NCBI RefSeq assembly: GCF_900104745.1
Contig: NZ_LT629732.1
Location: 4,389,981-4,453,980, forward strand
Source of the DNA: Actinopolymorpha singaporensis
GTDB lineage: Bacteria; Actinomycetota; Actinomycetes; Propionibacteriales; Actinopolymorphaceae
DNA length: 64,000 nucleotides
Direction of reading: 5' to 3'
Shown: piece after piece, positions 55,259 to 59,491 of the stretch
Numbering within the stretch: the stretch's first letter is position 1
Layout: each line of letters starts with the position of its first letter
Program-made: the position numbers and the translations under genes
The notes under the pieces: model-generated
Told to the model about the DNA's origin: nothing
Databases searched by the model: none
The model's input: the letters and a program-made list of their open reading frames with translations, nothing else

Positions 55259-55441
55259 CTGACGAGCACGCCGGCTAGGCGGGGCGGTGCCTGGGACGAC
55301 GACAACGCGGTCAGGCGGGATGCGGAGCGGGAGCGGGTCGTCCGCGCCCGGCTGACAAGGCGGAGGAGGAAGCGCGTAGCGGTGTTCTACGCGTGACGAC
55401 GACAACGCGGTCAGGCGGGATGCGGAGGCCCGCTCAGCCGG
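55259..55441 (+). ncRNA. Tandem structured RNA-like element of unknown identity
   Basis: Two 33-bp identical segments starting GACGACGACAACGCGG lie at 55295-55327 and 55395-55427, exactly 100 bp apart. Each is immediately preceded by a hairpin: CTAGGC-N8-GCCTGG (55275-55294) and CGCGTAG-N7-CTACGCG (55373-55393). The stems differ in sequence but not in position, and each has CTGACRAG further upstream (55259, 55352). In copy 2 an outer stem CCGGCTGA/TCAGCCGG (55348-55355 with 55434-55441) closes the element. A G-U pair in the copy 1 stem favours the plus strand. I do not recognise it as a named RNA family. Confidence 0.45.
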
Positions 55442-56672
55442 AGAACTCGTCGAGGGTCTTCTCTACCTCGGCCAGCCACGCCCGCCGGGCGTCCAGAGCC
55501 TCCTGCGCGCGACGTTCGCCGGTGACGTCGCCCTTCGCCTGCTGGGCTTCGAGCTCGCGTTCGAGGTCGGCGATCGAGTTGCGCAGCTGGCTGAGTGTGT
55601 CGTTGGCGCGGGCGCGCGTCTCGGGGTTGGTCCGGCGCCACTCGTTGCTCTCCGCCGACCGGATGGCTTCCTCGACCTTGCGCAGCCGGCCCTCTACCGT
55701 ACGAACGGAATCGCGTGGGACCCGCCCGATCTGGTCCCAGCGAGCCAGCAGCGAACGGTAGGCCTCCCGGGCGGCACGGTGGTCGCGTACCGGCAGCAGT
55801 GCCTCCGCCTCGACCAGCAGCGCCTCCTTCTGCTCGAGGTTGGCGCGGTACTCCGCGTCCTGCTCGGCGAACGCCGCGTTGCGGGCGTTGAAGAACCGGT
55901 CCTGTGCTGCCCGGAACCGCTTCCACAGTTGGTCTTCCACGTCGCGCGCGGCGGGCCCGGCAGCCTTCCAGCGCTGCATGAGGGTGCGGAACTGCGTGGT
56001 GCCGCGGCCCCAGTCGGTGGAGTCGGCCAGCGCCTCGGCCTCGGCGGCGAGCGCCTCCTTGACCTGGCGGGCGTCCTCGCGGCGTACGTTCAGCTCCGAG
56101 AAGTGCTGCTTGCGCCGGCGGGTGTAGGACGTACGGGCACTGGAGAAGCGCCGCCACAGCTCGTCATCGGTCTGCTTGTCCAGCCGGGGCAGCGCCTTCC
56201 ACTGCTCAAGCAGCTCGCGGAAGCGCCCGACGCCGTGCCGCCAGTCCGAGCCGCTCGCCAGGGCCGCGGCCTCGTCGGCGATCGCGGACTTGGCCGACCG
56301 GGCCTCCTCGAGCTGCCGCTTGCGCTCGGTGCGACGCTCGGCGCGCCGCCCGGCGATCACTTCCTCCAGCTGGTCGAGCCTGGCCGACAGGGCACCGAGG
56401 TCACCGATCGCCTGGGCGCCTGCGAGGTTGCGGCGCTCGCGGCGCAGTGCGTTGTGGGCGTCGTCGGGGGCGAGGATGCCGCTCTCCACCCGGGAGGCGA
56501 GCAGGTCGACCTCCAGCGCGAGGGCGTCGTACTTGCGACGGAAGAAGGCCAACGCTCCCTCGGGATCGCCGACCTGCCAGGATCCGATGGCGCGCTCGCC
56601 CTCGTCGGTGCGGAGGTAGACCGTGCCGTCGTCCGCGACCCTGCCCCAGGGCTCCTCTGCCGTTCCGCTCAC
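55434..56672 (-). CDS. DUF349 domain-containing protein
   Basis: A 412-residue, mainly helical protein with three DUF349 repeats: WRHGVGRFRELLEQWKALPR (about 155), WGRGTTQFRTLMQRWKAAGP (about 233) and AAREAYRSLLARWDQIGRVP (about 307), then a C-terminal coiled coil. Function unknown; the gene is conserved next to relA in actinobacteria. GTG 56672 with GGGAG six bases upstream. Its 3' end reaches into the RNA-like element. Confidence 0.92.
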   Translation of the reverse strand: MSGTAEEPWGRVADDGTVYLRTDEGERAIGSWQVGDPEGALAFFRRKYDALALEVDLLASRVESGILAPDDAHNALRRERRNLAGAQAIGDLGALSARLDQLEEVIAGRRAERRTERKRQLEEARSAKSAIADEAAALASGSDWRHGVGRFRELLEQWKALPRLDKQTDDELWRRFSSARTSYTRRRKQHFSELNVRREDARQVKEALAAEAEALADSTDWGRGTTQFRTLMQRWKAAGPAARDVEDQLWKRFRAAQDRFFNARNAAFAEQDAEYRANLEQKEALLVEAEALLPVRDHRAAREAYRSLLARWDQIGRVPRDSVRTVEGRLRKVEEAIRSAESNEWRRTNPETRARANDTLSQLRNSIADLERELEAQQAKGDVTGERRAQEALDARRAWLAEVEKTLDEFSG

Positions 56673-56691: not shown

Positions 56692-57177
56692 TCACGTCGT
56701 CGTGACCTTGACATCTTTGCCGATGACCGAGGAAACCGCCCGCTCGGTCCCCGCTTCCCCGTGATCGAACGGGGACGAGTCACCGTAGCCAGTGAGGAAT
56801 CGCTCGGCACCGGGTTTTTCACCACCGACCGGCCCGGCCGGGCCCGGTTGGCCCGGCTCCACGCGTTGCTCGCCGTGGCGCGGACGATCGGTCCCGCTCC
56901 CAAGAATGTAGCCCGGCCCCGGCGTGGCGGGAGGTGCCGCGAGTACGCCGATCCCCGCCGAGGTGCCCGGCCTGGCGGAGGCGGAGGCGGAGGAGTTGTC
57001 GCCGCGAAGGAGGAAGAAGACGAGGTAGACCACCGCGGCCACGGCGAGCACTCCGAGGACGACCGCGACGACGACGGCGTTTCGCCGGGCTCGGCGCCGG
57101 CGGGTGGCACGGCGGACCTGCTGACGCTCCCAGTGCTGCCTGGCGAGGCGGCGTCGGCGCTGCTCTTTGGTGACCAC
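56692..57177 (-). CDS. Remnant of a membrane peptidyl-prolyl isomerase: anchor without cyclophilin domain
   Basis: A 161-residue protein. The first 60 residues (VVTKEQRRRRLARQHWERQQ, then an Arg-rich stretch and one span, [20 protein letters not shown]) match the N-terminus of the cyclophilin-type isomerase encoded at this exact place (between DUF349 and MBL genes) in other actinomycetes. The remaining 100 residues are Gly/Pro-rich and contain no cyclophilin motif. It may therefore be a degraded or repurposed gene. Start is GTG 57177. DUF349 starts 19 bp downstream on the same strand. Confidence 0.7.
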   Translation of the reverse strand: MVTKEQRRRRLARQHWERQQVRRATRRRRARRNAVVVAVVLGVLAVAAVVYLVFFLLRGDNSSASASARPGTSAGIGVLAAPPATPGPGYILGSGTDRPRHGEQRVEPGQPGPAGPVGGEKPGAERFLTGYGDSSPFDHGEAGTERAVSSVIGKDVKVTTT

Positions 57178-57388
57178 CGAAGGCCCCGTTCTCTCCGCTT
57201 AGCTGTCCGATGACCGGTGTGCCAGTCTAGGAGACGCCTTGGCCCCGGTAGGGGAGTGTGTCCCGGTAATCGCCAGGACCGGCCAGGTTCGCCGCGCCGG
57301 ACACGCCGCCGGTAGTCTTCGAAGGTCCCCCCGCCTCGTCCCGACCGCCCCAGAGCGCCCAGACCGCCACCCGACCGCAGAGGATTCC

Positions 57389-58126
57389 ATGCTCGTCGCC
57401 GGCTTTCCGACCGGAGTGTTCGCCGCGAACTGCTACCTCGTGGCGACGGGGCCGGGCGAGGACTGCGTGGTGGTCGATCCGGGCCAGGACGCGGCGAGCG
57501 CGGTGGACGAGGTCGTTCGCGAGCACCGGCTCCGGCCGGTGGCGGTTCTGCTCACCCACGGGCACCTGGACCACATGTGGTCGGTGCTGCCGGTGTGCGG
57601 GAGCTACGACGCGACCTGCTGGGTCCACCCGGCCGACCGGCCGCTGCTCGCCGACCCGTTGCGCGGCCTGCCGCCGGAGTGGGCCGGCGCGCTGCTCGGC
57701 GGCGGGCAGTCCTTCGCCGAGCCCGACGACGTACGCGAGCTCACCGACGGCGCCCGGGTCGACGTCGCCGGGCTGAGCTTCACCGTCGACCACACCCCGG
57801 GCCATACCAGCGGGTCGGTCGCGTTCCGTACTCCCGTCGAGGGGGACGTACGCGGGGCAGGTGCCCCCACGTGGACCGGCCAGGCGAGCGCGGCGCCCGA
57901 GCTCATGTTCGCGGGCGACCTGCTCTTCGCCGGGTCGATCGGACGCACCGACCTGCCGGGCGGTGACCATCCGACGATGCTGCGCAGCCTTGCCGACAAG
58001 GTGCTGCCGCTCGACGACCGGATCGTGGTCCTGCCCGGCCACGGTGACCAGACGACCATCGGCCGGGAACGCCAGACCAATCCCTTCCTGAGAGGGCTCG
58101 TGCCCGGCCCGGCACGGAGCGGGTGA
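57389..58126 (+). CDS. MBL-fold metallohydrolase (glyoxalase II-like)
   Basis: A 245-residue metallo-beta-lactamase-fold enzyme. Metal motif THGHLDHMW near 56, GHTSGSVAF near 137, FAGDLLFAGSIGRTDLPGG near 176 and PGHGDQTTIGRE near 222, all zinc ligands in the order typical of glyoxalase II-like hydrolases. Precedes hisS by 9 bp, a conserved pair in actinobacteria. Substrate unknown. ATG 57389 after AGAGGA. Confidence 0.93.
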   Translation: MLVAGFPTGVFAANCYLVATGPGEDCVVVDPGQDAASAVDEVVREHRLRPVAVLLTHGHLDHMWSVLPVCGSYDATCWVHPADRPLLADPLRGLPPEWAGALLGGGQSFAEPDDVRELTDGARVDVAGLSFTVDHTPGHTSGSVAFRTPVEGDVRGAGAPTWTGQASAAPELMFAGDLLFAGSIGRTDLPGGDHPTMLRSLADKVLPLDDRIVVLPGHGDQTTIGRERQTNPFLRGLVPGPARSG

Positions 58127-58135
58127 AGATCGCAG

Positions 58136-59491
58136 ATGAGTTTCCAGGCGCCCAAGGGCACCTTCGACGTCGTACCACCGAGATCGGCCACCTGGCTCGC
58201 GGTGCGGGAGGCACTGAGCCGACCGCCCCGGCTGGCGGGGTACGAGTACGTCGAAACACCGATGTTCGAGGACACCGGGCTGTTCGTCCGCGGCGTGGGT
58301 GAGTCGACCGACGTGGTGACGAAGGAGATGTACACCTTCGCCGACCGGGGGGGCCGCTCGCTGACGCTGCGCCCGGAGGGTACGGCCGGCGTGCTGCGCG
58401 CCATCGCTGAACGCGGCCTGCACCGCGGCCAGCTTCCGGTGAAGGTGTGGTACGTCGGGCAGAACTTCCGGTACGAACAGCCGCAGTCCGGCCGCTACCG
58501 CCAGCACACCCAGGTCGGGGTGGAGACGATCGGCGGCGACGACCCGGCCCTGGACGCCGAGGTCGTCTGGATGGCCTGGCAGGCCCAGCGGCAACTCGGC
58601 CTCACCGGCACCCGGCTGCTGCTCAACAGCCTGGGCTGCCGGGAGTGCCGTCCGGCCTACCGCGAGCTCCTCCAGGACTTCCTGCGCGGGATCGACCTGG
58701 ACGACGACACCCGCCGGCGGGCCGCGATCAACCCCATGCGGGTGCTGGACGACAAGCGCCCGGAGGTCCAGGCCCAGCTCACCGACGCGCCGATGATCAC
58801 CGACCACCTGTGCGGCGCGTGCAAGGAGCACCACGAGCAGGTCCGCTCCTACCTCGCCGATCTCGGCGTGGAGTGGGAGGACACGCCGCGTCTCGTGCGC
58901 GGGCTCGACTACTACGTACGCACGACGTTCGAACTCGTCCACGGCGGGCTCGGCGCGCAGTCCGCCATCGGTGGCGGTGGCCGCTACGACGGGCTGCTGG
59001 CCACGATCGGGGGCCCCGACCTCGGCGGGGTCGGCTTTGGGCTCGGCCTGGACCGCACCGTGCTCGCCGTCGAGGCGGAGGGGCTGACGGTCGGGGAGAC
59101 CAGCCGGTGCGACGTGTACGTCGTACCCCTCGGCGCCGCGGCCCGGCGGCGGACGGTCACCCTGCTGCGGGATCTGCGCGAGGCGGGCGTACGGTCCGAC
59201 ACGAGCTACGGTGGCCAGGGCCTCAAGGGCGCGATGAAGGCGGCCGACCGTTCCGGCGCGGCGTTCGCGCTCGTCCTCGGCGACCGCGACCTGGAGCAGG
59301 ACAGCGCCCAGCTGAAGGACCTGCGCAGCGGCGGACAGCGGGCCGTCCCGCTCGCCGACCTGGTCGACGTAGTGGCGGAAGCCCTGGCGACGGCGCACGC
59401 CGAACAGGACCGACCAGGCCAGAACGGACCAGGCCAGAACCCTTCAGGGCAGGACCAGACAGCACCGACAACGAAGGAGACGCACGGGTGA
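58136..59491 (+). CDS. hisS: Histidyl-tRNA synthetase
   Basis: A 451-residue class II synthetase. Motif 1 region, motif 2 [20 protein letters not shown], histidine-A motifs [15 protein letters not shown] and GGGGRYDGL, then motif 3 and the anticodon-binding domain. A 30-residue Gln/Pro-rich tail is extra. Overlaps aspS by GTGA (59488-59491). Confidence 0.97.

Follow-up and report, generated by a model that had tools for sequence, protein, structure and literature searches.

The closest described relatives of the locus reported here are the PpiB-type membrane cyclophilins of actinobacteria, which place a basic N-terminus, a single membrane span and a linker ahead of a cyclophilin domain and are commonly encoded between a DUF349 gene and an MBL-fold hydrolase gene, and of which we take Mycobacterium tuberculosis PpiB (Rv2582) to be an orthologue. 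The M. tuberculosis protein is reported to occur in the membrane fraction, and it is cited as essential (PMC4794191). For the human family, Arg55 is described as the invariant catalytic residue and Gln63 is placed among the highly conserved ones, and PPIL2 as isolated is described as inactive on a standard peptide (PMC2911226). PPIL2 is comparable in its altered active site to the full-length cyclophilins of the bacterial family studied here, but PPIL2 keeps the whole domain, whereas the protein that is our subject has lost most of it. A narrow literature search covering titles and the beginnings of abstracts returned no description of such a cyclophilin truncation.

This protein is encoded by a short open frame in the window, by which we mean the whole 64,000-nucleotide stretch of the Actinopolymorpha singaporensis genome that was analyzed (contig NZ_LT629732.1, positions 4,389,981 to 4,453,980; Table 1). 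We consider it quite probable that the frame arose by stepwise, lineage-specific decay of a PpiB-type membrane cyclophilin, which left a translated anchor under selection. The frame runs from a GTG at 57177 to a stop codon ending at 56692 with zero internal stops; since other frames of the G+C-rich tail are also open over long stretches, openness is weak evidence on its own, and the same start, frame and stop in four other genomes are better evidence. The order DUF349, short gene, MBL hydrolase and hisS, from which the initial annotation had recognized the slot of the actinobacterial membrane isomerase, agrees with the gene calls.

Table 1. Features of the short frame and its neighborhood, in window coordinates.
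Feature	Coordinates	Strand	Basis
Short open frame of 161 aa, comprising the anchor and the degraded tail of the cyclophilin	56692..57177	-	ORF and alignment
Residues 1-33, Arg-rich, predicted cytosolic and helical	57079..57177	-	Alignment, structure prediction, codon model
Residues 34-58, predicted membrane span	57004..57078	-	Alignment, structure prediction, codon model
Linker, length differs between species	56950..57003	-	Species alignment
Cyclophilin remnant 1, residues 77-139, corresponding to family-profile positions 59-113 of 162	56761..56949	-	Alignment and profile
Cyclophilin remnant 2, residues 141-160, C-terminal end of the domain, corresponding to family-profile positions 142-161	56698..56757	-	Alignment and profile
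Leader 5' of the GTG, invariant in four species	57178..57222	-	Species alignment
DUF349 gene, starting 19 bases past the short-frame stop	55434..56672	-	Gene calls
MBL-fold hydrolase gene, divergent from the short frame	57389..58126	+	Gene calls
hisS	58136..59491	+	Gene calls

The N-terminal sequence and membrane span on which the initial annotation relied are both present: the protein opens with the Arg-rich MVTKEQRRRRLARQ, and hydrophobicity, judged by eye, places the span at about residues 34-58. As in PpiB-type proteins, this amounts to a basic N-terminus and one span, and full-length relatives can be aligned with the first 60 residues without a gap; a Gly/Pro-rich tail of about 100 residues follows. 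Structure prediction returned a helix over residues 4-62 and a low-confidence tail, and the full-length A. alba protein, run from a single sequence as a control, failed to fold (mean pLDDT 39.8), so that the predicted models are uninformative about the tail. The short frame is probably cotranscribed with DUF349, and a TAGACT just 5' of the leader is a candidate -10 box picked out by eye; a promoter and terminator scan returned no site, and a plasmid search returned no match. Between relA and DUF349 lies a perfect 33-base direct repeat (55295-55327 and 55395-55427, 100 bases apart), the 32-base core of which matches two more places in the genome with 3 mismatches.

With DUF349 and MBL on either side, the short gene occupies the PpiB-type slot, which is common across the class and not universal. 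Both genes flank a cyclophilin in 3/3 Streptomyces loci and in 14 of the 30 best-scoring class loci, and MBL alone does so in 9 more of those 30, many class loci being cut off because the flanks extended for only 1.5 kb. In two families of the same order, f3 and f4, no cyclophilin is found beside DUF349 at any of 22 loci (22/22) by a profile check that recovered the known copies in 7/8 loci of the window's family and missed the copy in G004; MBL adjoins DUF349 in these two families, and the f3 cyclophilin sits elsewhere in the genome, e.g. in G039.

We searched for the window protein in 57 genomes, that of the window included, and in eight genomes of its family, the Actinopolymorphaceae (Propionibacteriales). 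The same short protein is found in three genomes of the genus (G001, A. rutila G003 and G004; identities, in descending order, 83, 80 and 71% over 161 residues), and A. pittospori (G002) encodes a 43% identical protein in a 196-residue open frame, so that the short form is present in 5/6 genus genomes when that of the window (G000) is counted. Its presence in four other genomes rules out an assembly deletion, an explanation that the initial annotation had left for checking. Full-length proteins are encoded by A. alba (G005) and by members of two further genera of the family (G006 and G007), with 277, 298 and 282 residues as aligned, and these orthologues occupy the slot that the initial annotation had ascribed to a membrane isomerase. 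Between A. alba (L043 and L008) and the window, the slot is the same and the N-terminus, the start of the linker and the C-terminal end align; the difference is that the A. alba domain is complete, though without the equivalents of Arg55 and Gln63.

In a FastTree tree of the RelA, HisS, AspS, MBL and DUF349 proteins, with the two other family genera as outgroup, A. alba falls outside A. pittospori plus the window's clade with a support of 1.000, and two nucleotide trees of four of these five neighbor genes agree on this placement. The simplest reading is a single truncation after A. alba had split off. Two independent truncations, one in A. pittospori and one in the window's clade, are possible, because the A. 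pittospori protein has dropped the GPGY part yet has retained a middle part that is missing in the window's clade.

Loss of catalysis probably preceded that of the domain, as indicated by the full-length copies of the family, which lack the catalytic Arg and Gln. Equivalents of Arg55 and Gln63 are both missing from these copies (0/3), which carry Thr, Gly and Glu at the Arg position and Gly, Glu and Arg at the Gln position. Both residues are kept in 7/7 f3 proteins, in 3/3 Streptomyces proteins and in 30/30 class loci, this last set being the best-scoring 30 loci of the 58 genomes with a match (60 searched), with slot identity not established for all. Frames for this count were chosen by profile, under which 5 of 45 loci (L014-L018) have no cyclophilin match, and an earlier choice of frames, aided by motifs in which the tested residues themselves occur, gave the same result. 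Asn102, considered as a third active-site marker, varies in the class set too and was dropped. Judged by these residues, decay had begun before the domain was truncated, and the domain seems to have diverged faster in this family, with identities over the full-length domain, each from a single pair, of 33% between this family and Streptomyces, 36% between this family and f3, and 47% between Streptomyces and f3. In the window protein the region that would bear the two residues is missing from the alignment, and we expect prolyl isomerase activity to be absent.

The initial annotation held that the cyclophilin domain was absent and that the C-terminus was Gly/Pro-rich. The composition is as described, and cyclophilin is not among the Pfam matches of the window protein at E<=10; a genome-wide PF00160 search likewise gives no match at the short-frame locus, which thus falls below the curated domain cut-off. 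Judged by alignment and profile score, however, the tail is what decay has left of the C-terminal part of this domain and no unrelated sequence. Its segments GPGYILGSGTDRP, GGEKPGAERFLTGYGDSSPFDH and the terminal GKDVKVTTT align, in order, with GPGYIFGNEND, AGAENHAGSRFFITSGDSSTFEH and IQDVKVTTK of the A. alba protein, the full-length domain of which scores above the PF00160 cut-off (21.7 bits); positions 92-158 of PF00160 match the A. pittospori protein at 17.3 bits (E=0.0059). A family profile of 162 positions, built from the cyclophilin domains of the family's three full-length proteins, scores 23.5 bits against the window tail (best shuffle 7.0, with 1798 of 2000 shuffles reported), 93.6 bits against the clearer remnant of the A. 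pittospori tail (best shuffle 8.6, with 1771 of 2000 reported), and 28.0, 32.1 and 11.3 bits against the tails of G001, G003 and G004, respectively. Nothing in the window protein corresponds to profile positions 1-58 and 114-141, and its domain, compared with that of PpiB-type cyclophilins, is down to about 75 aligned positions of 162 with the catalytic half missing. The tail score and the slot shared with full-length relatives together indicate homology by descent to the PF00160 cyclophilins and rule out a gene that was never a cyclophilin. According to the initial annotation, the latter would follow if close relatives also lacked the domain and shared the C-terminal sequence; four relatives in the genus do lack the full domain and share the tail. 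Relatives one branch further out, however, have the domain from which the tail derives, which makes the gene a descendant of a cyclophilin gene.

Remodeling of the short protein into a new functional one, with the anchor carrying a new exported, unstructured tail, would also account for several properties of the tail, and we regard this as quite unlikely. In three species the indels of the tail come in multiples of three, and the in-frame species are near-identical around GYGDSSPFDHG and at the terminal KDVKVTTT. The fourth species, G004, has lost one base and later gained one, so that the frame is restored and the stretch between encodes the shared residues in another frame; regaining of the frame agrees with remodeling, but the shift alters about 24 residues of the best conserved stretch of the tail, and the amino acids there are thus not needed. 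Together, the in-frame indels and the repair in G004 hint at pressure on the whole frame.

There is good support for purifying selection on the anchor, both over codons 2-60 as a whole and over codons 2-32. Codon models for the four short-form species G000, G003, G001 and G004 give a maximum-likelihood ω of 0.21 for codons 2-60 (p=1.6e-5 versus 1) and of 0.12 for codons 2-32 (p=3.5e-5), while the span codons 33-58 alone give 0.29, which is not significantly below 1 (p=0.10); ω for DUF349 in the same analysis is 0.042. G004 was left out of the tail counts and of the separate-region tail estimate because of its frameshift, and the remaining three species give a tail ω of 0.66 (p=0.17 versus 1). 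A model with shared branch lengths, in which G004 was included with the frameshifted stretch masked, yields an ω of 0.34-0.39 for the anchor (p 7.9e-5 to 5.2e-4 versus 1) and of 0.52-0.61 for the tail (p 0.004-0.03). The tail is thus not cleanly neutral, as remodeling would have it, although its variable sites are spread over codon positions 1/2/3 (13/16/19 in three species), unlike the 11/2/11 of the anchor (Fisher p=0.023). Tighter constraint on the anchor than on the tail is suggested by these counts and by NG86 ratios (anchor 0.22-0.56, tail 0.66-0.86), the difference in ω being not significant in the shared model (p 0.10-0.15) and at p=0.07 with three species. Over the deeper split to A. 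pittospori the constraint on the anchor looks weak (NG86 0.57-0.65, against 0.15-0.17 for DUF349). Synonymous divergence is similar for the anchor and DUF349 (dS 0.15-0.25 and 0.16-0.23), and the anchor as a whole is therefore not simply slow; MBL of G003 and DUF349 of G007 are missing from the divergence comparison.

Constraint is also seen at the DNA level. Among the four species, 3 of 99 columns vary across the leader and gene start (57222-57124) and 0 of 66 vary across the junction with DUF349 (56701-56636), and in all four the short frame stops 19 bases before the DUF349 start. Leader and junction may therefore be constrained as DNA or RNA too, which leaves room for a coupling role. Two further explanations draw on this pattern. 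The whole frame could be an ordinary pseudogene, its N-terminus conserved through overlap with the place where the DUF349 transcript has both its leader and its translation start, and with too little time elapsed; near-invariance that extends to synonymous sites of the first codons, the frameshift pair in G004 and the ease with which frames stay open at this G+C content all speak for it. We nevertheless think it unlikely, given that four model fits place the anchor ω below 1 (p 1.6e-5 to 5.2e-4), and given the DUF349-like dS and the sparing of second codon positions in the anchor. The frame could instead serve as a leader cistron whose translation is coupled to that of DUF349 or keeps transcription from ending early, with amino acids that hardly matter. 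The short, invariant junction and the regained frame of G004 fit such a role, but coupling requires an open frame and not a conserved Arg-rich segment, and the observed amino-acid constraint makes this improbable.

Stepwise decay of a membrane cyclophilin, the reading that we prefer, probably proceeded as follows in this group of soil bacteria. The exported cyclophilin domain of the family's ancestor would first have lost the catalytic Arg and Gln, presumably along with its activity; after the A. alba split, the stretch that joined the linker to the GPGY motif, about 95-100 residues, was deleted, as the alignment shows, in one event or two. The C-terminal piece then decayed further: the window's clade lost some 27 additional residues, and one species acquired a frameshift pair in what was left. 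The Arg-rich segment and the span are probably still translated and, over codons 2-60 as a whole, are held by purifying selection. Their product would cross the membrane once, with the N-terminus inside and about 100 unstructured tail residues outside. The anchor may have been kept because it binds something at the inner membrane face, or because it forms a first cistron before DUF349 that must be translated, in which case it would have to stay a harmless membrane segment. The pattern suggests that the anchor matters by itself or at least must stay harmless. Decay and a function of the anchor, which the initial annotation had set out as alternatives, do not exclude each other: decay is borne out and the anchor is under purifying selection. 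Beyond that annotation go the derivation of the tail, the catalytic residues lost earlier, the distribution of the short form across the genus and the selection on the anchor.

It is conceivable, though doubtful, that in actinobacterial membrane cyclophilins the basic segment together with the span has a separate function, independent of the isomerase and older than the loss of the domain. In one pair between this family and Streptomyces, identity is higher in the anchor (52%) than in the domain (33%); among full-length relatives, anchor identity is below domain identity in 5/6 within-group pairs, which argues against the anchor as the main conserved part of the full-length proteins. If the anchor does have its own function, a lineage can drop the enzyme and keep the anchor. 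Living species show each step, from the catalytic motif kept in other families, through full-length proteins without it and a truncated domain, to the remnant, and provide a natural experiment on the role left to a membrane-cyclophilin anchor once the enzyme is gone, and on whether cells that retain FKBP-type isomerases can do without an exported cyclophilin.

A check for a cyclophilin elsewhere in the window's genome, as the initial annotation had proposed, gave one PF00160 match, a PpiA-like protein at another locus, and relocation of the lost domain is therefore unsupported. A frame of 332 residues is also kept in the genome; it has two FKBP matches and begins with what looks by eye like a lipobox. 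An FKBP-like protein of Streptomyces lividans is reported to be involved in the folding of overproduced secreted proteins (PMC6833217). Exported prolyl isomerization is presumably left to other enzymes, e.g. this tandem-FKBP lipoprotein-like protein. A. pittospori carries an extra cyclophilin in a 247-residue open frame (L029), and no second full cyclophilin match of this kind is found in the genomes of the window, G001, G003 and G004. Finally, G007 encodes a second, apparently exported cyclophilin (L030), located outside the DUF349 slot, which keeps an Arg and LQCGD at the catalytic motif.
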